Part shown: positions 3,001-63,134 of the stretch, piece after piece
Numbering within the stretch: position 1 is the first letter of the stretch
Layout of the letters: each line of letters starts with the position of its first letter
Virus record (IMG/VR): IMGVR_UViG_3300023172_000008
Coordinates: 62,001 to 126,000 of that record
From: a virus
Length of the DNA stretch: 64,000 nt
Strand: one strand, 5' to 3'
The notes under the pieces: generated by a model
Told to the model about the DNA's origin: nothing
What the model saw: only the letters and a program-made list of their open reading frames with translations
The model's database searches: none
Position numbers and translations under genes: made by a program

Positions 3001-6000
3001 TTGTTTTCTTCTCAATAATAACACCACTGTAACTTACAACTTCAACAGGTGAACTTGAATTTAAAAATACATCATAGTTTTCTTCTGGAACAAATACGTT
3101 ACCTTGGTTGTAAGGTGTTCTACTGTCAAGTACTAATCTAAATTTATTCTTTGAAGTAAATCCACCAATTTTAAATCCTAATTGATTTGATATAGATGTT
3201 AAGTTTTCTTTATACTGCGAATAAACATTAACTGTTTTTGAATTCATATAATCAGCAATATAATTTACAAATCCTGCTGTATATGTACGTGTTGTATCTT
3301 CTACTGTGTTAGGAAATACAATGTCTTGTAAACGCAATGCTTTTAAAGTATCTTTATAAACAATTAATCCTGCATTGTTACGAATAATTCTACTTCTATC
3401 CCAACCTAACCCCATAATCTTACTAGGTTGAGTTACTAACCAAGCAGTTAGTAATGCAAAAGGATATTCTGAACTTCTACGCCAAGCATTTTCTGTTGGT
3501 GCCATATCACCAAATGTAAATGGAAACTTAGAATTAGTTGCTGTAAATTCTTTTGAATAGTTACTTGCTAAAGGACTCAAAAGTGCGCCGCTATCGTCTA
3601 CTGGAATCCAATTAGTTACACCAGGACGAGCATATTGTGATTTATATTCTAATGGCTTGCCAGGTTCTCTAATAATGCCTTCTTCAATGTCTGTCCATAA
3701 AATTTTATTTTCACTAGTGTACGGCGCTGGACCGTATACATCATTCCACCATGTAGGTTTAATACTAAACCCTAAGATTTCCCATGGATGGGTATGAGGA
3801 CGATCAGTATCATATGCTTTCTTGTAAATTGATCTCCAGAAGCCTAAACTTTTAGTTAATTTAGGTGTTAGTGTTCTTGAGTAGTTAAAAGTAAATGAAT
3901 CTGTTCTTTCATAAAAACTATTATCAGTGTAGTCCAGGTTTCCTAAAATAGTTAGCCATTCAGTAAAGTCAGTAATCATAACTTTATCAATCGACTCTGC
4001 TGTAATACCCGTATCTCTAAATTCGCCGCCTAGGAATTCATGAATGTCAATTAAATTTGTATCGTATTGTACTTTAATATTATTATAGATTCTAGTTTCT
4101 AATTCTAATAATAAATCATCTCTATAGTCACCATAGCATTTAAAAATACTGCCGTCGTGTCCTTGAATTACTTCTACAGGCTCTCTATAAGTATCGTCAA
4201 TATACTTAGACGGAATAAACTTAGGATACAATCCAAACTTAGTTGGTGTTGGAGGAATAAATGATCCGTTAGTGCTTTCAAACTCGTAAATTTTAATTAT
4301 ATCACCCGGAGTTAAAACTTTTGTAATATTAACAAAACTTTCAAAACCTTCTTCAAAGATATAATCTGCTCCTTCGATCAGTTGTACATCATTTACATAT
4401 ACACCTACTGCTTTATCTGAAAGTGTTCTTAAATTAAAATCCTGTCTTAAACTGTAGTAGCCTTGATCAGAATCTCTAACTGTATGTTCTGTTAATTTAA
4501 ATGTTCCATGGCCAATCATATCACTAAAGAAGAACGGCATATCGTTAGTTTTGTTTTTGTTAACGTCTGCTATTACTTTCTCAAAGTGTATTTGAAGATT
4601 ACCGTCAAAGCCTAGTGTTTCTGCTGAACGTAAGAATAACCGTTTAAATTTAGCATATTCATTTTTAGCAAAACGCATTGACTTAACAATGTTTGAATCT
4701 TTATTAGTAATATGATATAAACTTAAATTTGTTAAACCCGAATGCTGTACAAATTTGTCACCATAAGTTGATACAGATCCTAGATCTCGTAAATTACTTA
4801 CACCTGGAAATGTTCCCGACCACTTGTCTGAATTTTCTGTAATACTCTGTACGTGATCATTTACTTCGCCTAGTGTAAACGATTTAATATTTTCATTCTG
4901 AGGATTGCGTTCTAAATTAATTGGAAATTCATAAACGCCATTTGAATTTTTTGTTGTTGCACTTCTTGTTTTAATTAATAGATTATCGCCGGCTGTTAAC
5001 GGTTTCATAAAGTTAACATACGCAATTCCATTTACTCTTACAATACTAAAGTCTACTAAATCTGTTTTCCTAACATCATTAACATAAACTCTGTACCACA
5101 AGTCATTAAGATCGCCGCTACGATTGTAAACGTCAATAGCAAAATCATTTGTTTGTGTATCAACAATATATTGTCTTTGTACTAGTTGTTGGCTGTGAGC
5201 AAAACCCTTTTCCCAGCCATTAACATAATCAAATTCTTCTCTAGTAGTATACTTTCTAAGTAAACCGATATCAGTTTTAACAGTTAAGATATCTGTACCG
5301 TCTTGGTAATTAAATTCGTCACCTGAAATATTAAAATCAAATACAATATCACCAGTGTTTTCTAATGCTCGATATGATAGAGCAAAACCTAATTCAGAAT
5401 CAACTGTACCTGTACCTTGTTTGTAACTGAATAATTTATTACCAGCAAATGTTGAACTAGGATAAACAGTACTGTCGTTAAACACATATCCGCTATCATC
5501 ATACAAATCAAACAACGGTGATTGGTTTACTGATGTTTTTTCTTGTGTCTTTTTCCAAGTTGTTCCATCATAATAGTAAATTAAACCTTTGTTTTCGTTG
5601 CCACGCTTAACAAGTACGGTTTCATTTAATAATGGCTTGCCATCAGTTTCTTCAATTAAACTAATTTGTCTAACATTATTGTGTGTAATAAAGTTAACTT
5701 TAAAAATTCTACCAGCAACAAATGAATCTGGGTCTGCGTTAAACAAAATACGCATACCATCAGTTACATCTTGTCCGTCAATGTTATAACCTAGTTGTCC
5801 TTCAATAGTTGAAAATACATCTTGTGTGAATGTATCAATTAAGTCAACATCTGCTTTTGCTTCAGTTCCATAGTTAAACAATTTAAGATCTGCGTCAAAT
5901 TCAATAATAGGACGCTTTGCACGATTTTCTTGATCAATCTCTGGAACAATATTGTTAATTACTGCTGTGGTTTCAATTACATCTCTATGGAACCATCTAT

Positions 6001-20211: not shown

Positions 20212-20640
20212 ATGCAATGGACTTATCAGGGAAAAACAATTGAATCTATACCAGAAGAGTATGAAGGCTTTGTTTATCTTATAACAAATACAACTAACGG
20301 GCAAAAATACATAGGCAAAAAACTAGCCAAATTCAAAACTACTAAACCTCCCCTAAAAGGACGCAAAAATAAGCGTCGAGGACACAAAGAATCAGATTGG
20401 AAAGACTACTGGGGGTCGTCTGATAAACTATTAGTAGACGTAGAACAACTAGGCCCAGAAAACTTCACAAGAGAAATACTATACCTTTGCAAATCACGGG
20501 CAGAGATGTCCTATATAGAGGCAAGAGAGCAATTTGACCGCCGAGTATTAGAAACAGACGACTATTATAACGGTATTATTAACGTAAGAGTGGGCGGTTC
20601 TGATAAATTGCGACAGGCACTACTAGAATACAACAAGTAA
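20212..20640 (+). CDS. GIY-YIG nuclease domain protein
   Basis: This 142-aa protein is essentially one GIY-YIG domain. The two short strands appear as GFVYLI (residues 19-24) and KYIGKK (32-37). The catalytic Arg is probably R87 in FTREIL, the metal-binding Glu E103 in YIEAREQF, and the Asn N120 in YYNGIINVR. Similar single-domain proteins in T4-like phages are Seg-type homing endonucleases or repair nucleases. No DNA-binding tail (NUMOD or zinc finger) follows. There is no clear Shine-Dalgarno site ahead of the ATG. It lies just before a long structured noncoding region, which raises the possibility of a past mobile RNA/endonuclease pair. Confidence 0.85.
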   Translation: MQWTYQGKTIESIPEEYEGFVYLITNTTNGQKYIGKKLAKFKTTKPPLKGRKNKRRGHKESDWKDYWGSSDKLLVDVEQLGPENFTREILYLCKSRAEMSYIEAREQFDRRVLETDDYYNGIINVRVGGSDKLRQALLEYNK

Positions 20641-22059: not shown

Positions 22060-24855
22060 ATGAAACTGCACGAAGTAACCACGTATAACTTAAAATCACA
22101 AACTATTCTTAACGAAGGTTGGAACGTTTTAACTGAAGCACAACAATTACACATTGGCCAATGGGAAAAACGTGTATGGCCGTTATACGAAGAGTTTAAC
22201 AGACTCATGGAAGCAGAACTTACTGCTAACCAAGTGCAAGATATTTTTACTAACGCAGAAAAAGTTGCAATTGAAGGTGGTGACAACCTAACAGCCTTGG
22301 GTAAAGCAGGCAAAGTAACTGCTGAAGTCTCAGGCAAGATGAAAGCAGAACTTGATAAGTTAATTAAACAAGCGGCTGAAAGCGGTCCTGTTAAAAACTT
22401 TGATCAACAGTTTGAAAAATTAAAAGCACAACTAAAAACTAAACTACAAGGCAACCCAGCAGGACAAAAAATTCTTCAAGGTGTTGAGAAGTGGGGCGGT
22501 TTTGCTAAAGAAAATCCAGCCAAGAGTGCATTTATTATTGGTGCAATGACTTCCGTACTTGCATTTGCAAGTGGCGGTATTTTGTCAGGTGCCGCAATTG
22601 GTTTCTTCTTAAAACTAGCAAACAATACTATTAAGGGTGATAAACTGTCAGTTGCGATGGCTAAAGGTGTTAAAGGCGCGGCACTTGGTGCTGTTGCAGG
22701 TGCATTAGGCTCTGCTATTTCAAGTGCGGCAGAAGATTTATTCCCAGCAGAAGTTACAAATATTTTTGTAAACCAAGATGGTGCTATTGATATTAGTCAA
22801 ATAGATGCCATGGACGCAACATCTCTAACGGACATAGATGCTGATGCGGCCAAAGAACTAATTCAAGCACGTTCAGCAATGGAAGAAATGCTTCCAAGAC
22901 TAAGCGGTGAAGAAGGTGAAGTACTACAGCAACAGTTAGATCAACTTAATGACAAAATTGTACAACTAGGTGGCGGCGAAAACCTTAAAGGTTCAATTGA
23001 TGCAATACAAAGTGAATTTGGTATTGAAGGTAGAGGCGTTGATGTAGTAGTTAAAGGTAATGATGTTGACACTGGCACAGACGCTGAGCCTCTTCCGGGC
23101 GATGATGGCGACTATGGAGAACCAGCAGACGATGGTGCACCTGATGCAGACAAACTATCAGGTGACGAAGTAGGAACAGTTAAAGCAGAATATTCAGCAG
23201 AAGAACTTAATGACAAATTTAATATTGACTCAAGTGAATTTCCACGTAACGGTTGGCTAGATGAAAACAAAGATGCACTATTAAAAGCAGGAATGACCGA
23301 AACAGAGTTTGAAGATTTACAAGCGGCTACACAATTAGAAAGAGCAGTTGACCAAGCAAACTTCCGTGAAGGTATTTCAATGAGTTCAAGTAGCGAATTA
23401 AAAACATTCATGGGTGATGAACCAAAAGTAATTGGCGGCATAGAAGGCGAATACGAAGCAGGAGAAACCTTTACAAATAAAATTGAAACAAAACTACCTG
23501 GTTCAGATAAACCTTGGAGTGCTAACGTTACAACACAAATTGAAGGTGTAGATGCAGACGGTAATACAGTATACGCAATTAAAGAATTAACAGTAGGACC
23601 AGAAGTTTTTAATGATAAAATGTTTGCGGCTATTGATAAACTTGCAGAACAAGATCCAGACAATCCTTTGGTAAAAGCATTTATGGATAATGTTATTCTA
23701 GCAAACAAAGAAGCAAGTATGGAAACACTTAAAGATACTTTTGCTCAAGACGTTGCAGAAAAAGTTATGCAAGGTGCGGCGGCAGTTGCACTAGGTGGAG
23801 CACTAGCGGCATCAGAAGTTAAGCCAGCAGAAACAAAAGAATCTAGAGATTTAAGAATAGCAAAAGAACTAGAAGAAGAATATAAAATCTATCTAGAAGT
23901 AGAAAGCAAGTATACTGACGAATACCTAGCAGAAATTGGCATTAAAGACATTGCTAAGAAAGCGGCGGCAGGAGCGGCAAATATCGGTAAAGCGGCGGCT
24001 AAAGGTGTCGGCGCTGGAATGGATAAAGCAGGTGCGGCAGTTGGCGGCGGCATTGGTAGAGCAGTTGGTGCTGTAGCAGGTGCGGCAAAGTCAGCAGGTA
24101 AAGAATTAGGTAATAAGATCACAGTTAAGAAACTAAATGCTATTTGGAAGAAGATGGGAGAACCGTTAGACACAGGTTCTATTGCAAATATTCTTTCAGA
24201 CGCGGGTATGAGCGATGAAGCAATTGGTCTTGTTGCTACAAATACTAAAACAGATTTAAAACCAACACCTAAAGCAGACGCAGATGCAGATGCAGGTGCA
24301 ACAGATGCAGGTGCAACAGATGCAGGAGCACCTGAAGGCGGAACAACAGATGCAGGAACACCAGCACAAGGTGGCAAACCAGAAAAAGGTGCAAAAGCAA
24401 CAGGTTCAGATGGCGACACTTATACTTTCCAAGGACAACAATGGACAAGTGATAAGACAGGTAGAGTTGCTACAAAGGCAGTAGCGGCTGAACTTAATAA
24501 AGGTTCGGGTACAGCAAAAGCAAGTACTTCAGCACAAGGCGGAGATACTCCAGCACAAGCACAAGGTGGCACACAAGCACAAGGTGGCACACAAGCACAA
24601 GGTGGCACACAAGCACAAGGTGGCACACAAGCACAAGGTGGTACAGTAGATGTTAAAGCATTAGCACAGGAAATTAAAAAAGCAGGCGTTGCTGATGCTG
24701 TTAAACAATCACTTGCTCAACCAGCAGGACAATCTGCTAGTGCAGGTCAATTAGGTAATATGGAAATTGATATACCGACATTGGCTGACGAAATCGGTAA
24801 AGCGGGTTTACAAAAACAAGTAAGAGATATGCTAACACAGAAACAGCCGGCTTAA
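22060..24855 (+). CDS. Large low-complexity protein with hydrophobic segments, probable virion protein
   Basis: This 931-aa protein has several parts: an N-terminal helical region (1-150); two hydrophobic Gly/Ala-rich segments, SAFIIGAMTSVLAFASGGIL (about 155-174) and GAALGAVAGALGSAISSAAE (about 206-226), that could insert in membranes; an acidic region; a beta-like domain around 450-530; and Ala/Gly-rich stretches. A conserved-looking motif KLNAIWKKMGEPLDTGS is near 690. The C-terminal third is low-complexity, including a six-residue tandem repeat. Such architecture fits a protein carried in the virion and ejected into the cell, but that is inference. It follows the 214-aa gene after 11 bases, and its last 4 bases overlap the end of the convergent minus-strand frame at 24852. 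Confidence 0.7.
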   Translation: MKLHEVTTYNLKSQTILNEGWNVLTEAQQLHIGQWEKRVWPLYEEFNRLMEAELTANQVQDIFTNAEKVAIEGGDNLTALGKAGKVTAEVSGKMKAELDKLIKQAAESGPVKNFDQQFEKLKAQLKTKLQGNPAGQKILQGVEKWGGFAKENPAKSAFIIGAMTSVLAFASGGILSGAAIGFFLKLANNTIKGDKLSVAMAKGVKGAALGAVAGALGSAISSAAEDLFPAEVTNIFVNQDGAIDISQIDAMDATSLTDIDADAAKELIQARSAMEEMLPRLSGEEGEVLQQQLDQLNDKIVQLGGGENLKGSIDAIQSEFGIEGRGVDVVVKGNDVDTGTDAEPLPGDDGDYGEPADDGAPDADKLSGDEVGTVKAEYSAEELNDKFNIDSSEFPRNGWLDENKDALLKAGMTETEFEDLQAATQLERAVDQANFREGISMSSSSELKTFMGDEPKVIGGIEGEYEAGETFTNKIETKLPGSDKPWSANVTTQIEGVDADGNTVYAIKELTVGPEVFNDKMFAAIDKLAEQDPDNPLVKAFMDNVILANKEASMETLKDTFAQDVAEKVMQGAAAVALGGALAASEVKPAETKESRDLRIAKELEEEYKIYLEVESKYTDEYLAEIGIKDIAKKAAAGAANIGKAAAKGVGAGMDKAGAAVGGGIGRAVGAVAGAAKSAGKELGNKITVKKLNAIWKKMGEPLDTGSIANILSDAGMSDEAIGLVATNTKTDLKPTPKADADADAGATDAGATDAGAPEGGTTDAGTPAQGGKPEKGAKATGSDGDTYTFQGQQWTSDKTGRVATKAVAAELNKGSGTAKASTSAQGGDTPAQAQGGTQAQGGTQAQGGTQAQGGTQAQGGTVDVKALAQEIKKAGVADAVKQSLAQPAGQSASAGQLGNMEIDIPTLADEIGKAGLQKQVRDMLTQKQPA
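24553..24642 (+). repeat. 18-base tandem repeat inside the 931-aa gene
   Basis: About five copies of an 18-base unit (ACACAAGCACAAGGTGGC), each encoding TQAQGG. The central three copies are identical at base level, which indicates recent expansion by slippage or recombination. A related Asp/Ala/Gly/Thr repeat (TDAGA) lies at about 24284-24360. Confidence 0.9.
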
Positions 24856-25064
24856 AAGAACGGCTGTCCTGTTTTCTTAGCAGTTTCTAGATTTTCCTTA
24901 ATAAGCGTAGACATAATTTCTCTATCTTCAGAAGAAGCATTATAAATTTCATCCAATGTGATACTACCTCTCATATACCAGAGTAATCTCATCAGTTCGA
25001 GTTTGTACTGCTTCGTCTCTTTTTCCATTTTGTCCACTTCTCCTAGGATCTCTTCAAGAGACAT
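24852..25064 (-). CDS. Tail-assembly chaperone C-terminal frame, made by -1 frameshift from gp26 or separately
   Basis: This 70-aa frame has an N-terminal coiled helix (LEEILGEVDKMEKETKQYKL) and the motif LLWYMRGSITLDEIYNASS then DREIMSTLIKENLETAKKTG. That type of C-terminal segment is seen in tail-assembly chaperones of many myoviruses. It begins 11 bases after the gp26 stop in the -1 frame. The frame is open back to a TTTTTTC slip site, so a gp26 fusion of about 362 residues is possible. AAGGA eight bases before the ATG at 25064 would also allow separate initiation. This mirrors the G/GT chaperone arrangement next to tape-measure genes. Confidence 0.75.
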   Translation of the reverse strand: MSLEEILGEVDKMEKETKQYKLELMRLLWYMRGSITLDEIYNASSEDREIMSTLIKENLETAKKTGQPFF

Positions 25065-25088
25065 TGTGGAGATCCTTAGGCGAAAAAA
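25045..25088 (-). promoter_or_regulatory. Programmed -1 ribosomal frameshift signal
   Basis: On the minus strand the heptamer T_TTT_TTC (25088 to 25082) sits in the correct register of gp26, three codons before its stop counting the stop. Five bases later an 8-bp perfect stem begins: AGGATCTC (25076-25069) pairs with GAGATCCT (25052-25045) across a 16-base loop. Adding CCT/AGG around one bulged A extends it to 11 bp. After slippage the ribosome reads CGC CTA AGG ATC TCC ACA ATG and enters the 70-aa frame without a stop. Confidence 0.8.
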
Positions 25089-26012: not shown

Positions 26013-28661
26013 ATGGTTGAAGTCAATTATCGTGGTGGAGGAATGGATGGTGTTACTAGTAATGCCGCATCAGAAGCCACCTTATTACGTGTATTAAAAG
26101 CACTAGAATCTGGCGGAAAAGGCGGAGGAACTGGTGGAAAAATACAAGAACAGTTCAATAAAGCACAACAAGCAGGTATTTTAGGCCAGCAAAAATCAAC
26201 AGATGCTATAAAAGAAGGCACAAAAACACGTCAAGAGAATACCGGAGCAGTCAAAAAAGCCACAGATAAACTCAAAGATATGACAAAAGCCGTTGACAAG
26301 TACACTTTTGGACTTGTTAGTGGACTTGGAAATGCAGTAAAAGCCACAGGTGATTTGGCTATTGAAGTATTAGCAGGTGGCGATAGACTATCAGACTTTA
26401 GTAAACACGTTACGGGACTTGCAAGTAAGATTCCACTTGTTGGAGGATTATTAGGCGGAGCGGCACAGACCTTTGTTAACATTATTGAAGGACAAGTTGA
26501 TACTTTTAGAGAATTATCAAATGCAGGTATTGATTTTGGTGGCGACCTATTTGAAATAAGACGTAAAGCGGCAGAAGCAGGTATAAGCATGGAAACACTT
26601 GCAGGCACACTAGCAGAAAATTCATCAATGTTGGCTACAGCATTTGGCGGTGCAAGTGCAGGTGCAACAAGATTTACAAATATCACAAGAGAAATTCAAA
26701 AGAACCAAGGAACATTTTCAGCACTTGGTATGACAATGCAAGACGTAACAGAGTTTACTGCTGATTACATTGAAATGCAAAAGATCCAAGGTAGAGTTAC
26801 GCAGATGAGTGATCGTCAACTTGCCAAGGGAACAAACGAATATATTATGCAACTTGACCAGTTATCTAAAATTACTGGTATGAGTAGAAAACAAGCGGCA
26901 GAAGAATTAAAACAACAATCGACAGACAAAAGACTTAAAAACTTATTTGCTTCAATGGAAGAAGGCACTAAGAAACAAGTTCAAGGTGTGTTAGCAGTTG
27001 TAGGTAACGCTTCACCGCAAATGAAAGAAGCAATTACAGAATTAGTTGCAACAGGCGGCGTACCTATCAGTGACTTTGCCAAGTCCTTAGGCAGAACAAA
27101 TCCAGAAATTCTTGAAATGGCTAGAGGTCTTAAAAACGGTACTGTAACACAAGATCAATTTGTTGAAGCATTAAAAGAAGCACAACAAAAAGCCGCGGCA
27201 AGAGCAAAAGCAGAAGGCGGAATGATTGCAACATTAAGTGCATTAGGCTCAACCGCTTACGATGCTAACTCAGAATTAATGAGTTTAGGATTTGTTTCCG
27301 GTAATGTTGCAGACGCTGTTGACGCACAAGCAAAAGCACAAGAAAACGGTAGAAAAGGTATACTAAACTTCGAAAGTGCAATTACTAAACTACGTAACAT
27401 CATTGTTGGTAAGATATTAGATTCAGGCGTATTTGAAGGCGTTATGAAAGAGTTTAATAAACTTACTATTTGGCTTTCAAGTCCCGAAGGCACCAAGAAA
27501 ATGAAAGAGATGTTTGACGGTGTTAGTAATTTCTTAGAAGGATTTATTGCAGACTTTAAAACTATGAAGTTTAGTGAACTAATTGACAAATATCTTATCA
27601 AACCTTTAAAAGCAATGGTGTTTGGTGAAAAAGCCGTAGATAAAAAAGCCGCAGTCAACACAGAATATGATAAAAAAATTGCGGCGGCTGGTGGCGCCGG
27701 TACTGATGAAGGTAAAAAATTAATTGCTGAAAAAGAAAAGTTACTAGCAGAAGCAGACAAAGAAGGAGACAGCGGAGGCTTACTAGGATCTCTAATACCA
27801 GACATTGGATTTAAAGAAATGGCAATCGGACTTGGAGTAGTTTCGGCGGCAGTTATTGCAGTAGGTGCCGCAGGTTCATTAGCAAGTCCAGGACTATTAT
27901 TAGTTGCGGCCGCGTTTACAGGAATAGGTGTTGCAGGATTTGGTATTGCCGCGTTAATCGAAGCAATTACTACAGGTGTTGGAAAACTCGCAGACGGTGT
28001 TATCAAGTTTGAAAACATGGATTCTAAAAAGTTAGGCGATGTTGGTAAAGCATTAGGACCTTTAACTGATAACATGATGCAGTTAGCCAAAGGCGGTATT
28101 GTTGCTAGTTTCATCGGTGAAGGCGCATTTGAAAAACTATCCGCAGGATTAAAATCGTTTGAAGATTTAAATCCACAACAAATGCAATTGATTGGTCCAG
28201 CACTTGCAAGTTTACACAAAGGTATTAGTGCATTCACTGGTGACGGTGTAATGGATAGTTTTGGTAAGTTCTTAGGAAGTCTATTTGGAAATGACGGCAA
28301 CTTTGATGACCTAGCAGAAGGATTAAAGAGTTTTGCTGATATTGATGCCGCTGGATTAGAAAAAATTGGTAATGGATTACAAGGTATTGCTAAGTTTATG
28401 GAAGCAATGGACAAAGCCGATTTAGATGAAGTTGCTGACAGTTTAAAAGAATTAACAAAAGAAATTGGAAATTACCAAGCGGCTTATTCTAAAATGGATG
28501 CAGATACTAAAGCAAGTATTGAAAAAATGATTAATGTGTCAACTGAAGGCCAGAACGGCGCAGAAGCGAAATTAGATCGCTTAAATAGTTTAAACGCTAT
28601 GATGTTAGAAGAACTTAAAAAACAAACTAAAGGCATTCGTGAGAATGGCTTTGGTATGTAG
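26013..28661 (+). CDS. Tail tape-measure / hub protein, gp29-like
   Basis: This 882-aa protein has tape-measure composition: long Ala/Lys/Glu-rich helices, a Gly-rich start and hydrophobic stretches. Residues about 10-110 are polar. Gly-rich hydrophobic segments include IPLVGGLLGGAAQTFVNIIE near 140, and a long one from about 607 to 655 (VVSAAVIAVGAAGSLASPGL, then LLVAAAFTGIGVAGFGIAAL). The C-terminus is helical with repeated 'GL.SF.D.....' patterns (LKSFEDLNPQQMQ, LKSFADIDAAGLE). In T4 the tape measure gp29 is 590 aa. The neighbouring frameshifted chaperone supports the call. It precedes gp20 by 8 bases. Confidence 0.72.
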   Translation: MVEVNYRGGGMDGVTSNAASEATLLRVLKALESGGKGGGTGGKIQEQFNKAQQAGILGQQKSTDAIKEGTKTRQENTGAVKKATDKLKDMTKAVDKYTFGLVSGLGNAVKATGDLAIEVLAGGDRLSDFSKHVTGLASKIPLVGGLLGGAAQTFVNIIEGQVDTFRELSNAGIDFGGDLFEIRRKAAEAGISMETLAGTLAENSSMLATAFGGASAGATRFTNITREIQKNQGTFSALGMTMQDVTEFTADYIEMQKIQGRVTQMSDRQLAKGTNEYIMQLDQLSKITGMSRKQAAEELKQQSTDKRLKNLFASMEEGTKKQVQGVLAVVGNASPQMKEAITELVATGGVPISDFAKSLGRTNPEILEMARGLKNGTVTQDQFVEALKEAQQKAAARAKAEGGMIATLSALGSTAYDANSELMSLGFVSGNVADAVDAQAKAQENGRKGILNFESAITKLRNIIVGKILDSGVFEGVMKEFNKLTIWLSSPEGTKKMKEMFDGVSNFLEGFIADFKTMKFSELIDKYLIKPLKAMVFGEKAVDKKAAVNTEYDKKIAAAGGAGTDEGKKLIAEKEKLLAEADKEGDSGGLLGSLIPDIGFKEMAIGLGVVSAAVIAVGAAGSLASPGLLLVAAAFTGIGVAGFGIAALIEAITTGVGKLADGVIKFENMDSKKLGDVGKALGPLTDNMMQLAKGGIVASFIGEGAFEKLSAGLKSFEDLNPQQMQLIGPALASLHKGISAFTGDGVMDSFGKFLGSLFGNDGNFDDLAEGLKSFADIDAAGLEKIGNGLQGIAKFMEAMDKADLDEVADSLKELTKEIGNYQAAYSKMDADTKASIEKMINVSTEGQNGAEAKLDRLNSLNAMMLEELKKQTKGIRENGFGM

Positions 28662-28669
28662 GAGAACAA

Positions 28670-30415
28670 ATGAGTTGGAAAAGATACTTTACACCAGTTG
28701 AAGGTGATAAAGCACAAAATGGAAATTTTAGTCCTTTAGGGGGAATGAATAATAGCCAAGGTCTTGGACCTGCACAGGCAAACTATTCATCATATCTTCC
28801 AGACGTTTACGTAGGTTCTCCAAATCGTGTAGAGCGTTACGGACAATACAACACTATGGATATGGATAGTGAAGTTAATGCCGCACTTGATATTTTAGCA
28901 GAATTTTGTACACAAACAAATAAAACAAACGAAACTAACTTTAGTTTACAGTTTAATAATACTGCAACTAGTACAGAAGTACAGACGCTTAAATTATATT
29001 TAAAACAGTGGTCAAAACTACAAAACTTTGAAACAAAAATGTTTCGTATTTTACGTAATGTTTTCAAATACGGCGATGCATTTTTTATTAGAGACCCAGA
29101 AACTAAAAAATGGTTTTATGTTGACCCAGCAAACGTAACTAAAATTATTGTAAACGAAAGCCAAGGCAAAGAGCCCGAGCAGTACATTGTTAGAAACATT
29201 AACTTAAACTTTGTTAATGGTATTGCTACTACTCCACATCAAACAAACGGAAATGTTACAGGTGGCGGAGACGGATATATGACAGGCGGTGCTCGTGGAA
29301 TGGTAGGCGCACCGAGTCAAACACAAGCAGGTGGCAGATTCCAAAAAGACATGAAGGAAGTTGCTATTGATGCTGAACACGTTGTACACTTGTCATTGTC
29401 AGAAGGATTAGACAATAACTTCCCATTTGGTAATTCATTACTTGAAAGTATTTTTAAAGTTTACAAACAAAAAGAATTATTAGAAGACGCTATCATTATT
29501 TACAGGGTACAAAGAGCACCTGAACGTAGAGTGTTTTATGTAGACGTAGGTAATATGCCATCACACTTGGCAATGCAATTTGTTGAGCGTGTTAAAACAG
29601 ACATACACCAAAGACGTATTCCATCTCAAACAGGTGGTGGACAAAATGTTATTGATAGTGCATACAATCCTTTATCAATTAATGAAGATTACTTCTTTCC
29701 ACAAACAGCAGAAGGTAGAGGATCAAAAGTTGAAACACTACCAGGCGGTACTAACCTAGGCGAAATTGACGATCTAAAATACTTTACTAATAAACTTGTT
29801 AGAGGTTTACGTATTCCAAGTTCATACTTACCAACAGGACCAGATGACGGAGCATCACAGTTCCAAGATGGTAGAGTAGGTACTGCTTATATTCAAGAAT
29901 TACGTTTTAATACATACTGTGAAAGACTACAAGGTCTTGTTTCAGAAGAGTTTAATCAAGAGTTTAAACGCTATCTATTAGAAAAAGGTGTAAACATTGA
30001 TACAGCAATGTTTGATCTTAAAATGAATCCACCACAAAACTTTGCAAGTTACAGACAGTCAGAACTTGATAATGCTAGAGTTGGAACATTTACACAGATG
30101 GCGGGTATACCTTATGTTGCAAATAGATTTGCACTAAGTAGATTCTTAGGACTAAGTGCAGAAGAAGTTGCAGAAAACGAAAGATTATGGCGTGAAGAAA
30201 ACGACGAAACAATTCAACCAATACCAACAGACGCAAGTGGCGAACTTAGAGGCGCAGGAATTAGCGGAGCAGGTATTGGAGCAGACCTAGGCGGTGAAGG
30301 CGGCCTAGAAGATACAGCACCAGAGGGCGAAGGTGGCGCGGCACCAGTTGACGGAGGTAATGCACCTCCACCAGATACAGCAACAGGCGGCGGAACTCCT
30401 CCTCCAGCACAATAA
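28670..30415 (+). CDS. 20: Portal vertex protein gp20
   Basis: This is the dodecameric portal through which DNA is packaged and ejected, at the unique head vertex. Its 581 aa compare with 524 in T4. Family segments include SPNRVERYGQYNTMDMDSEV (about 50-69) with NAALDILAEFCTQTN, FGNSLLESIFKVYKQKELLE with DAIIIYRVQRAPERRVFYVD, and LPGGTNLGEIDDLKYFTNKL, all highly conserved in gp20. The C-terminal 60 residues are Gly/Ala/Pro-rich and disordered. AGGAG before the ATG supports the start. It opens the head operon. Confidence 0.96.
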   Translation: MSWKRYFTPVEGDKAQNGNFSPLGGMNNSQGLGPAQANYSSYLPDVYVGSPNRVERYGQYNTMDMDSEVNAALDILAEFCTQTNKTNETNFSLQFNNTATSTEVQTLKLYLKQWSKLQNFETKMFRILRNVFKYGDAFFIRDPETKKWFYVDPANVTKIIVNESQGKEPEQYIVRNINLNFVNGIATTPHQTNGNVTGGGDGYMTGGARGMVGAPSQTQAGGRFQKDMKEVAIDAEHVVHLSLSEGLDNNFPFGNSLLESIFKVYKQKELLEDAIIIYRVQRAPERRVFYVDVGNMPSHLAMQFVERVKTDIHQRRIPSQTGGGQNVIDSAYNPLSINEDYFFPQTAEGRGSKVETLPGGTNLGEIDDLKYFTNKLVRGLRIPSSYLPTGPDDGASQFQDGRVGTAYIQELRFNTYCERLQGLVSEEFNQEFKRYLLEKGVNIDTAMFDLKMNPPQNFASYRQSELDNARVGTFTQMAGIPYVANRFALSRFLGLSAEEVAENERLWREENDETIQPIPTDASGELRGAGISGAGIGADLGGEGGLEDTAPEGEGGAAPVDGGNAPPPDTATGGGTPPPAQ

Positions 30416-61331: not shown

Positions 61332-63134
61332 ATGGCGGATAAAAAACCGGTTTGGATTGCAGGTATTGCTAGAGGACATAACGGAGGTGTTTGTCTACTA
61401 AAGGACGGTGAAGTAGTATTTGCACTTGAAGAAGAGCGTCTAACAAGACACAAATACGATGGCGGCCCATTTGCCACAATGTTGAAAATTCTTGAGTACA
61501 CAGATGAATTAGATTTTCTTATTGTAGCACATACACAAAATTTACAATATACAGCGGGTAAAATTGATTTTAGCGGAGACGATGTTTATACTGGTCTTGC
61601 ACGTAAACTAGGTTTAATTAAAAGACAGCCGTTTAATGGAAATCCGCACCCACAAGTTATCGACCTAAGTCATATTCATCACAAGTTACACGCGGCTTGT
61701 GCTTTTTATCGCTCAGGGTTTGACGAAGCAGTTGGTGTTATTGTTGACGGTGCAGGAACATTTATTGATTTAAACATTGGCAATCAACAAACAACTGTTT
61801 GGGAAACTGAAAGTATTTTTGATTGTAACTATCCAGATAACTTTAAAACATTATACAAACACCTAGGAACAAATGGACCTTTAACAGGTTCTTGGATGCC
61901 AGAATTTACTAGCGAAATGTATGACGAACCTAAAGAAAATACACACGAACTTTTCCTAACTGAAAATGCAGGTATTGTTAAAGCATACGAAGCAGTAACT
62001 GAGTACTGTGGTTTTAGTTTTATTGAAGCAGGAAAAACTATGGGGTTATTCCCATATGGTGGGCCCAATGTAGAGTGTCCTAAAATTTTTAGAGAGGACA
62101 CACTACATCCTATTTCCGATAGAGAATTAATTGTACCAACATATCCTAACGGTGCTCACGTTAATTACAATATGTTTCCGTTTTTAACTGATCACTCAGA
62201 TGACGATGTTACTAAATTAAAAAATAGAAGAGACATGGCGTATGCTATTCAAACACAAACACAAGAACAAGTTGTACGCTTAATTAAAAAAGCAGTTGAA
62301 ATGTCAGGAAAAAACAAAGTTGTTATTTCCGGAGGATACGGATTAAACTGTGTTGCTAACTATCATTACCTTGATGCACTAAAAGATCAAGACATTGAAA
62401 TTTATGTTGAACCAGTATCAAATGATGCAGGCACAGCAATGGGTGCCGCAATGTACTGGCATAGAAAATTAACTAAAAGCAATAAAGTTAATCCACAAGT
62501 TGATACATTATACGAAGGACCGGAATATTTTTATTCACAAGAAGAAATTGAAAATACTGCCGAAAAATATAATGCAACTGTAACAGATGCAAGTGATAAA
62601 GATGCTGTTGCACTATTAAAAGATAGAAATATTGTTGTAATGCATCAAGGACGTTCAGAGAATGGTCCAAGAGCATTAGGTAATAGAACTATTATGTACG
62701 ATCCAAGCGATCCAAACGGAAAGGATCACGTTAATACTGTTAAGCGTCGAGAATATTTCCGCCCGTTTGCAGGTAGTATCTTAGAAGAAGATGTACATGA
62801 GTGGTTTGACTTACGTGGTATGAAAAGTTCGCCTACAATGATGTATGCTGTAAATTGCCAGCCAGGCATTGAAAAGAAAATTCCTGCTATTATTCATGTA
62901 GACGGAACTTGTAGAATTCAAACCGTAAATGAAAAACAAAATCCACTTTACTATAGATTCATTAAAGAATGGAAAAAAGAAACCGGTATTCCTATGGTGT
63001 TTAATACTTCATTTAATCTAGGCGGTGAACCATTAGTAGAAACATTAGATGATGCAATTCGTACATTAGCACACAGTGATATCGAATACTTGTATCTACC
63101 AGAATACGGTAAATTAATTACACTAAAGAACTAA
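61332..63134 (+). CDS. Carbamoyltransferase (NodU/CmcH/TobZ family)
   Basis: At 600 aa it has the full two-domain length. The N-terminal YrdC-less Kae1-like ATPase fold starts WIAGIARGHNGGVCLLKDGE, with LEEERLTRHKYDGG; metal-binding His residues lie in SHIHHKLHAACAFY (about 113-126). VISGGYGLNCVANYHYLDAL (about 332) and RSENGPRALGNRTIMYDPSD (about 438) are the family's core motifs, followed by REYFRPFAGSILEED. It moves a carbamoyl group from carbamoyl phosphate via ATP to a hydroxyl, in known cases on sugars of antibiotics or Nod factors. Here the acceptor may be a glycan of the host or virion; a DNA base is a less likely alternative. Confidence 0.9.
   Translation: MADKKPVWIAGIARGHNGGVCLLKDGEVVFALEEERLTRHKYDGGPFATMLKILEYTDELDFLIVAHTQNLQYTAGKIDFSGDDVYTGLARKLGLIKRQPFNGNPHPQVIDLSHIHHKLHAACAFYRSGFDEAVGVIVDGAGTFIDLNIGNQQTTVWETESIFDCNYPDNFKTLYKHLGTNGPLTGSWMPEFTSEMYDEPKENTHELFLTENAGIVKAYEAVTEYCGFSFIEAGKTMGLFPYGGPNVECPKIFREDTLHPISDRELIVPTYPNGAHVNYNMFPFLTDHSDDDVTKLKNRRDMAYAIQTQTQEQVVRLIKKAVEMSGKNKVVISGGYGLNCVANYHYLDALKDQDIEIYVEPVSNDAGTAMGAAMYWHRKLTKSNKVNPQVDTLYEGPEYFYSQEEIENTAEKYNATVTDASDKDAVALLKDRNIVVMHQGRSENGPRALGNRTIMYDPSDPNGKDHVNTVKRREYFRPFAGSILEEDVHEWFDLRGMKSSPTMMYAVNCQPGIEKKIPAIIHVDGTCRIQTVNEKQNPLYYRFIKEWKKETGIPMVFNTSFNLGGEPLVETLDDAIRTLAHSDIEYLYLPEYGKLITLKN

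Follow-up and report, generated by a model that had tools for sequence, protein, structure and literature searches.

Programmed -1 frameshifting underlies the tail assembly chaperones G and GT of phage lambda (reviewed in PMC5009743). In phage T4, the role of tail assembly chaperone has been assigned to the hub assembly chaperones gp26 and gp51 (Vladimirov, Gautam & Davidson, 2022, Virology 566:9-15, as cited in PMC10885494 and PMC12846349). Citing that work, the PRFect study (PMC10885494) describes T4-like phages that have, in place of frameshifting, one gene for a short chaperone and another for a fused long one, and PMC12846349 credits it with poly-T slip sites in the chaperone genes of some T4-like phages. 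Poly-T slip sites (GTTTTT) are also described in the tail assembly chaperone genes of Vandenendeviridae and Andersonviridae (PMC12846349). Because both the chaperones and the slip sites are credited to Vladimirov et al. (2022) in the citing papers, the core idea is treated here as known. Apparently new in the searchable literature, as far as checked and with Vladimirov et al. (2022) represented by the papers that cite it, are the breadth of the system in RaK2-like phages and in the clade of the present phage, a covarying stem, and a pattern of one versus two gene copies.

The window analyzed here is a stretch of 64,000 nucleotides (positions 62,001 to 126,000 of IMG/VR record IMGVR_UViG_3300023172_000008), and its phage is a member of an uncultured clade with Atu_ph07 and the RaK2-like jumbo phages as near relatives. 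It contains a gp26-like gene that resembles lambda gpG/gpGT in having a short ORF and a -1 extension joined near the 3' end, in the long tail, and possibly in lying beside the tape measure gene. In KVP40-like relatives, the -1 frame is directly upstream of a protein matching phrog_58 (tape measure; E 2e-8). It differs from lambda in belonging to the PF12322 family, in its heptamer T_TTT_TTC, and in its larger short form (~290 aa), and in the window clade the tape measure candidate is divergent rather than downstream. Vandenendeviridae and Andersonviridae share the proposed mechanism, and their short chaperone gene likewise has a run of Ts as slip site at its 3' end, but their site is GTTTTT (PMC12846349), whereas the present locus has T_TTT_TTC, a covarying stem, and a gene of the gp26 family. 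Closest are Atu_ph07, Phosso, PA5oct, RaK2, CBB, and 121Q, which have gp26, the in-register heptamer, an open -1 frame whose tail is recognized as homologous by hhalign or tblastn, and, in most, the same neighbors (a divergent structural gene and the portal gene). They differ in their stems and in annotation, the -1 frame being unannotated or called a hypothetical protein, sometimes with a later start. We consider it very likely that a programmed -1 frameshift gives this phage two forms of its tail-assembly chaperone, one short (G-like) and one long (GT-like).

Gene layout and slip site

The gp26-like protein matches the Pfam family T4_baseplate (PF12322) with an E-value of 5e-9, above the curated cut-off, and the same family is matched by 37 of 37 aligned relatives. 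It also matches phrog_150 (baseplate hub, E 1e-11). The preferred start, ATG 25939, lies in the context GGAGAAAAACCATG with its GGAG Shine-Dalgarno sequence and is better than ATG 25978, from which a longer ORF of 300 aa can be read. On the minus strand, the gene ends GCA AGT TTT TTC GCC TAA, which places the heptamer in the 0-frame register X_XXY_YYZ. Features of the locus are listed in Table 1.

Table 1. Features of the gp26-like locus and its neighbors (window coordinates).
Feature	Position	Strand	Evidence or remarks
gp26-like gene, short form (TAC-N / G-like), 287 aa	25076..25939	-	ATG 25939, SD GGAG; PF12322, phrog_150
Slippery heptamer T_TTT_TTC, gp26 frame	25082..25088	-	Sequence; conserved in homologues
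Spacer GCCTA, 5 nt, heptamer to stem	25077..25081	-	Sequence
gp26 0-frame stop TAA	25076..25078	-	Sequence
Stem 5' arm AGGATCTC	25069..25076	-	Fold, pair counts
In-frame ATG of 70-aa ORF	25062..25064	-	Not conserved: TTG in L009, closest different relative
Stem 3' arm GAGATCCT	25045..25052	-	Fold, pair counts, synonymous I/L codon covariation
-1 frame T-like tail (FFRLRISTMSLEE...GQPFF)	24852..25088	-	Stop TAA 24854-24852; joined to gp26 by putative shift
Candidate tape measure protein, 882 aa, divergent neighbor	26013..28661	+	phrog_14121 virion structural protein, E 6e-10
T4-like portal protein gp20	28670..30415	+	PF07230, E 2e-109

No stop interrupts the -1 frame between a point upstream of the heptamer and TAA 24854-24852. 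It has 78 codons counted from the heptamer and would extend gp26 by 76 residues, so that the fusion would be 362 aa long from ATG 25939 and 375 aa from ATG 25978. The original prediction had placed a heptamer in the right register at the end of gp26, followed by a 5-base spacer and a perfect 8-bp stem, with a -1 frame open into a downstream 70-aa frame and a fusion of about 362 aa. All of these readings were confirmed from the sequence, the fusion length when counted from ATG 25939.

Conservation of the heptamer

The heptamer was found in the gp26 register in 131 of 131 distinct homologous 3' ends (129 TTTTTTC and two TTTTTTT), which were drawn from the window clade, RaK2-like jumbo phages, cyanophages, and KVP40-like and ZPAH1-like phages. 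Matches of gp26 in tblastn included jumbo phages of the RaK2, CBB, PA5oct, Atu_ph07, and 121Q kinds at 26-35% identity. An in-frame TTTTTTC with an open -1 frame was present in all of 80 IMG/VR relatives (45-100% identity) and in five named phages. When gp26 proteins of cyanophage, KVP40-like, ZPAH1-like, and CBB-like phages were used as queries, the heptamer was in register at every complete 3' end; one locus (L151) stops within the slip site and falls outside the complete 3' ends. The heptamer is present also in 121Q, Vibrio 2.275.O, and SCTP-2. T_TTT_TTT takes the place of T_TTT_TTC, with the -1 tail kept, in Stenotrophomonas phage CM1 (a T7 run) and in two further loci (L178 and L179). The original prediction had named an alignment of gp26 3' ends from T4-like genomes as a check, and its outcome agrees with the prediction: among the relatives examined, those without a separate gp51 keep the slip site, its register, and the open -1 frame, with Ackermannviridae (another junction) and Microcystis phage Mel-JY01 (T8, another frame) as exceptions.

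Codon choice around the site departs far from chance expectation. The codon before the heptamer always ends in T (AAT, TCT, AGT, GAT, GCT, CAT, CGT, or ACT in the 131 3' ends). Under the codon usage of the same genes, the chance of this is log10P about -29 for the preceding codon and about -99 for TTT-TTC, both naive values that ignore shared ancestry. Other Phe-Phe pairs of the same genes were never encoded by TTTTTTC (0 of 84). Among homologues, the position of the 0-frame stop varies between 3 and 33 nt past the heptamer. The kept features are therefore the slip site and the FFR peptide of the -1 frame rather than the end of gp26.

The two exceptional junctions deserve separate description. 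In Mel-JY01 (locus L192, around 3745-3970), the gp26 homologue has an 8-T run, and an overlapping gene annotated as hypothetical carries the T-like tail in the +1 (= -2) frame. In the Ackermannviridae phages T765, ECML-4, 3M, and VAP7, a -1 T-like tail is open and conserved and there is no canonical heptamer; the gp26 stop is overlapped in the -1 frame by ATT, ATT, ATC, and ATG, respectively. This arrangement hints that a different slip site (..TTTTC) may be used or that reinitiation may take place at a non-AUG codon.

Stem downstream of the slip site

The 8-bp stem is perfectly paired and begins 5 nt past the heptamer; RNAfold of positions 25095-25040 extends it with a bulge (-16.6 kcal/mol). 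Across 60 distinct sequences, a ten-pair helix was standard-paired in 82.5% of cells, compared with 35-50% when slid by 1-3 columns, and 59 cells were double-changed, compared with 23 from shuffles. In 34 rows with Glu-Ile-Leu in the 3' arm, the synonymous choices ATC/ATT and TTA/CTA track the opposite arm (p = 8e-8 and 2e-7, phylogeny ignored). The location of this structure 5 nt downstream of the heptamer, within the 5-9 nt expected of a stimulatory element, and its covariation suggest a putative role for the stem in stimulating the shift.

The stem is a clade-specific feature of the window's wider clade. RNAalifold returned no consensus structure for all 60 mixed sequences, probably because stems differ between subclades, and the named 10-pair helix was therefore counted instead. 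Conservation of the stem, which the original prediction had raised together with that of the slip site, holds in the window clade, where it is accompanied by synonymous covariation. It does not extend to the jumbo phages, whose members pair 4-6 of the 10 positions of the window stem, or to some other relatives, which fold a longer alternative hairpin instead.

Probable translation of the -1 frame

The -1 tail has the characteristics of a conserved protein. In an alignment of 28 homologues, F1, F2, R3, W37, R40, G41, and R56 are invariant, and conservation of the tail begins with FFR directly at the slip site. A tblastn search with the -1 frame matched Atu_ph07 (E 5e-6) and Phosso (E 9e-6); the alignments span 100% of the query and take in the stretch ahead of the ATG of the 70-aa ORF. 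Codon positions 1 and 2 of the frame are less variable than position 3.

Reinitiation offers another way of expressing this frame and had been put forward with the original prediction. The 70-aa frame would be a separate gene, started at ATG 25064 behind AAGGA after translation of gp26. In the window, AAGGA lies 8 nt ahead of this ATG and the gap from gp26 is short, and in Phosso the second annotated CDS overlaps the gp26 stop by 4 nt. Against this, the window ATG is replaced by TTG in L009, and among 55 window-clade loci, the opening 36 codons of the -1 frame contain no ATG at all in 29 and no ATG, GTG, or TTG in 20. A start of any of these three kinds is likewise missing ahead of the conserved core in 20 of 54 cyanophage-type loci, as in the 20 of 55 from the window clade. 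The FFR peptide lies ahead of the ATG and is invariant, and it is covered by the match to Atu_ph07 and Phosso; moreover, reinitiation would leave the conservation of the heptamer unneeded. Because start codons are missing in many loci and L009 has TTG, reinitiation fails as a general mechanism, and we regard it as very improbable.

Transcriptional slippage, in which RNA polymerase gains or loses a base on the T6 run and produces fusion-coding mRNAs, appears less probable still. The run is homopolymeric and reaches T7 or T8 in L178, L179, CM1, and Mel-JY01, but six Ts make a short run for the polymerase to slip on efficiently. Both the terminal C and the codon register are invariant across 129 of 131 3' ends, and the downstream RNA stem is kept with covariation, both as predicted for slippage by the ribosome.

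Finally, although PA5oct gp26 was not among the proteins flagged by mass spectrometry, it is scarcely credible that the -1 frame goes untranslated and that Phe-Phe and the nucleotide pattern reflect gp26 C-terminal and RNA constraints alone, since conserved proteins are encoded in close and distant relatives, codon position 3 is the most variable, and T4 gp51 contains a module of this kind as a genuine part.

Annotation of the tail differs between genomes. It is unannotated in PA5oct, RaK2, ZPAH1, T765, and ECML-4, annotated from a late start in Atu_ph07, and annotated as a short 'gp51' in cyanophage S-RIM50.

Proposed mechanism

Under programmed -1 frameshifting, gp26 would be the tail-assembly chaperone of a T4-related phage, made in two forms. 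The majority of ribosomes would terminate at the gp26 TAA and release the short, G-like form. A fraction would slip one base back on T_TTT_TTC, where Phe-tRNA would re-pair with TTT and TTT; the downstream stem would assist the slip. These ribosomes would translate the -1 frame and yield a GT-like long form of ~362 aa with a C-terminal T module, the presumed counterpart of T4 gp51. By analogy with lambda G and GT (PMC5009743), the role of the short form would be to coat the tape measure protein, and that of the long form to recruit tail tube subunits. We infer the shift in cells, its efficiency, and the action of the chaperones on the tape measure.

Relation to T4 gp26 and gp51

In T4 gp51, residues 1-201 match PF12322 (E 4e-52), and the C-terminal part, residues 147-246, matches phrog_634 (E 1e-23). 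Matches to phrog_634 were also obtained with the -1 tails of cyanophage S-RIM50 (3e-29) and Vibrio phi-ST2, a KVP40-like phage (8e-22), and cyanophage-type tails aligned with the gp51 C-terminus in hhalign at 96-97%. For the window-type tail, merged alignments against the gp51 T module gave a score of 24.6 and a probability of 49%, with 60 column shuffles at or below 13.5. Matches of window tails to cyanophage tails or to gp51 alone were not significant in hhalign, and no PHROG family matched window-type tails convincingly. These comparisons argue firmly for T-module homology in cyanophage and KVP40-like tails and more weakly in the window's tail type. In fold searches, a gp51-type model retrieved gp26 proteins; searches of solved structures and PDB folds with gp26/gp51 profiles or model found nothing.

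Copy number follows the slip site. Whole-record searches found one PF12322 copy per matching slip-site genome, and also one in three Ackermannviridae; SCTP-2, which has the slip site, gave no PF12322 match in its whole-record search. The 184,930-base record of the window phage, which may be incomplete, contains one copy; a second copy, as in the two-gene arrangement of T-even phages, was not found in it. Two copies (gp26 and gp51) are present in 9 of 9 T-even-type genomes tested. The gp26 gene of T4 ends GAG TTC TTT GAG TTA CTA TAA (..EFFELL) with no heptamer, and none of the T-even-type gp26 3' ends examined has the heptamer in frame. T4 and the window phage share a Pfam family and, on the proposed reading, the same two products. 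They differ in that T4 has two genes, two PF12322 copies, and no slip site, and the window phage a single copy together with a slip site.

The 70-aa frame was also considered as the positional counterpart of T4 gp51. This was dropped: in T4, gene 25 follows gp26 and gp51 is a divergent 249-aa gene. Because this gene order is incompatible with a positional match, domain homology was used for the comparison.

As gp51 consists of a gp26-like domain and a T module, and given the copy pattern, it looks like a directly encoded long form. T-even gp51 is a separate gene with both domains in one ORF, and therefore no slip site is needed. The domain and copy comparisons support the view that one frameshifted gene would yield the same product pair as T4 gp26 plus gp51. 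The idea that a conserved shift would unify gp26 and gp51 is supported accordingly by the make-up of T4 gp51, a gp26-like part with the kind of tail that the frame encodes; its novelty is reduced, since it was largely already published (Vladimirov et al., 2022, as represented in citing papers). The assignment to a T4-like phage stands insofar as the phage is T4-related; by gp26, its nearest named relatives are Phosso/Atu_ph07 and the RaK2-like jumbo phages, not classical T4.

T4, called an exception to tail-chaperone frameshifting in a major review, would thus be an exception within its own protein family, and the frameshift system appears near-universal among the more distant T4 relatives examined. 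This reading corrects the annotation of a tail that, in the genomes of cyanophages and jumbo phages examined, has been omitted, split, or given the name 'gp51' or 'hypothetical'. It also gives a direct rule, a slip site with one gp26-family copy or no slip site with two copies, which can be checked in culturable phages (KVP40, S-RIM50, RaK2, and T4).

Tentatively, and with somewhat less than even confidence, the frameshifted single gene may be ancestral in the gp26 family. The T-even arrangement would then be derived, with a gp26 copy fused in frame to a T module to give gp51 and the slip site decayed. In the window clade, the stem would be a later addition, and the T module would have diverged strongly or been replaced. 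This history would span T4-related phages, cyanophages, and KVP40-like and RaK2-like jumbo phages, with TTC TTT in T4 gp26 as a possible remnant.

Neighboring genes and fold similarities

The 882-aa neighbor of gp26 has a hydrophobic segment at residues of about 603-650, and its RaK2 equivalent is annotated as 'similar to tail tape measure protein'. A divergent homologue is retained in 73 related loci. On these features, it is a candidate tape measure protein.

No sequence or significant fold match linked gp26 to lambda-type G chaperones, and lambda-type chaperone families were absent among the Pfam matches listed for gp26 (25 families). The chaperone of an Arthrobacter phage gave a weak fold match (E 0.18, probability 0.80). 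The gp26 model also retrieved ~500-aa proteins of jumbo phages RSF1, RP12, Special G, phiEaH2, and PS1, with E-values of ~1e-6 to 2.5e-3 and low TM-scores; on this modeled similarity, they are possible chaperones.

Two other genes near the locus were observed. A SegE-type GIY-YIG endonuclease (20212-20640, plus strand; PF19835, E 6e-35) lies a few kilobases from gp26. Convergent with the gp26 tail is an ORF on the plus strand (22060-24855) that encodes a 931-aa Ala/Gly-rich protein with no Pfam match, and the stops of the two overlap by four bases (24852-24855). Within this ORF, at window positions 24554-24645, an 18-bp unit encoding Ala-Gln-Gly-Gly-Thr-Gln is present in five copies that match at 98%.
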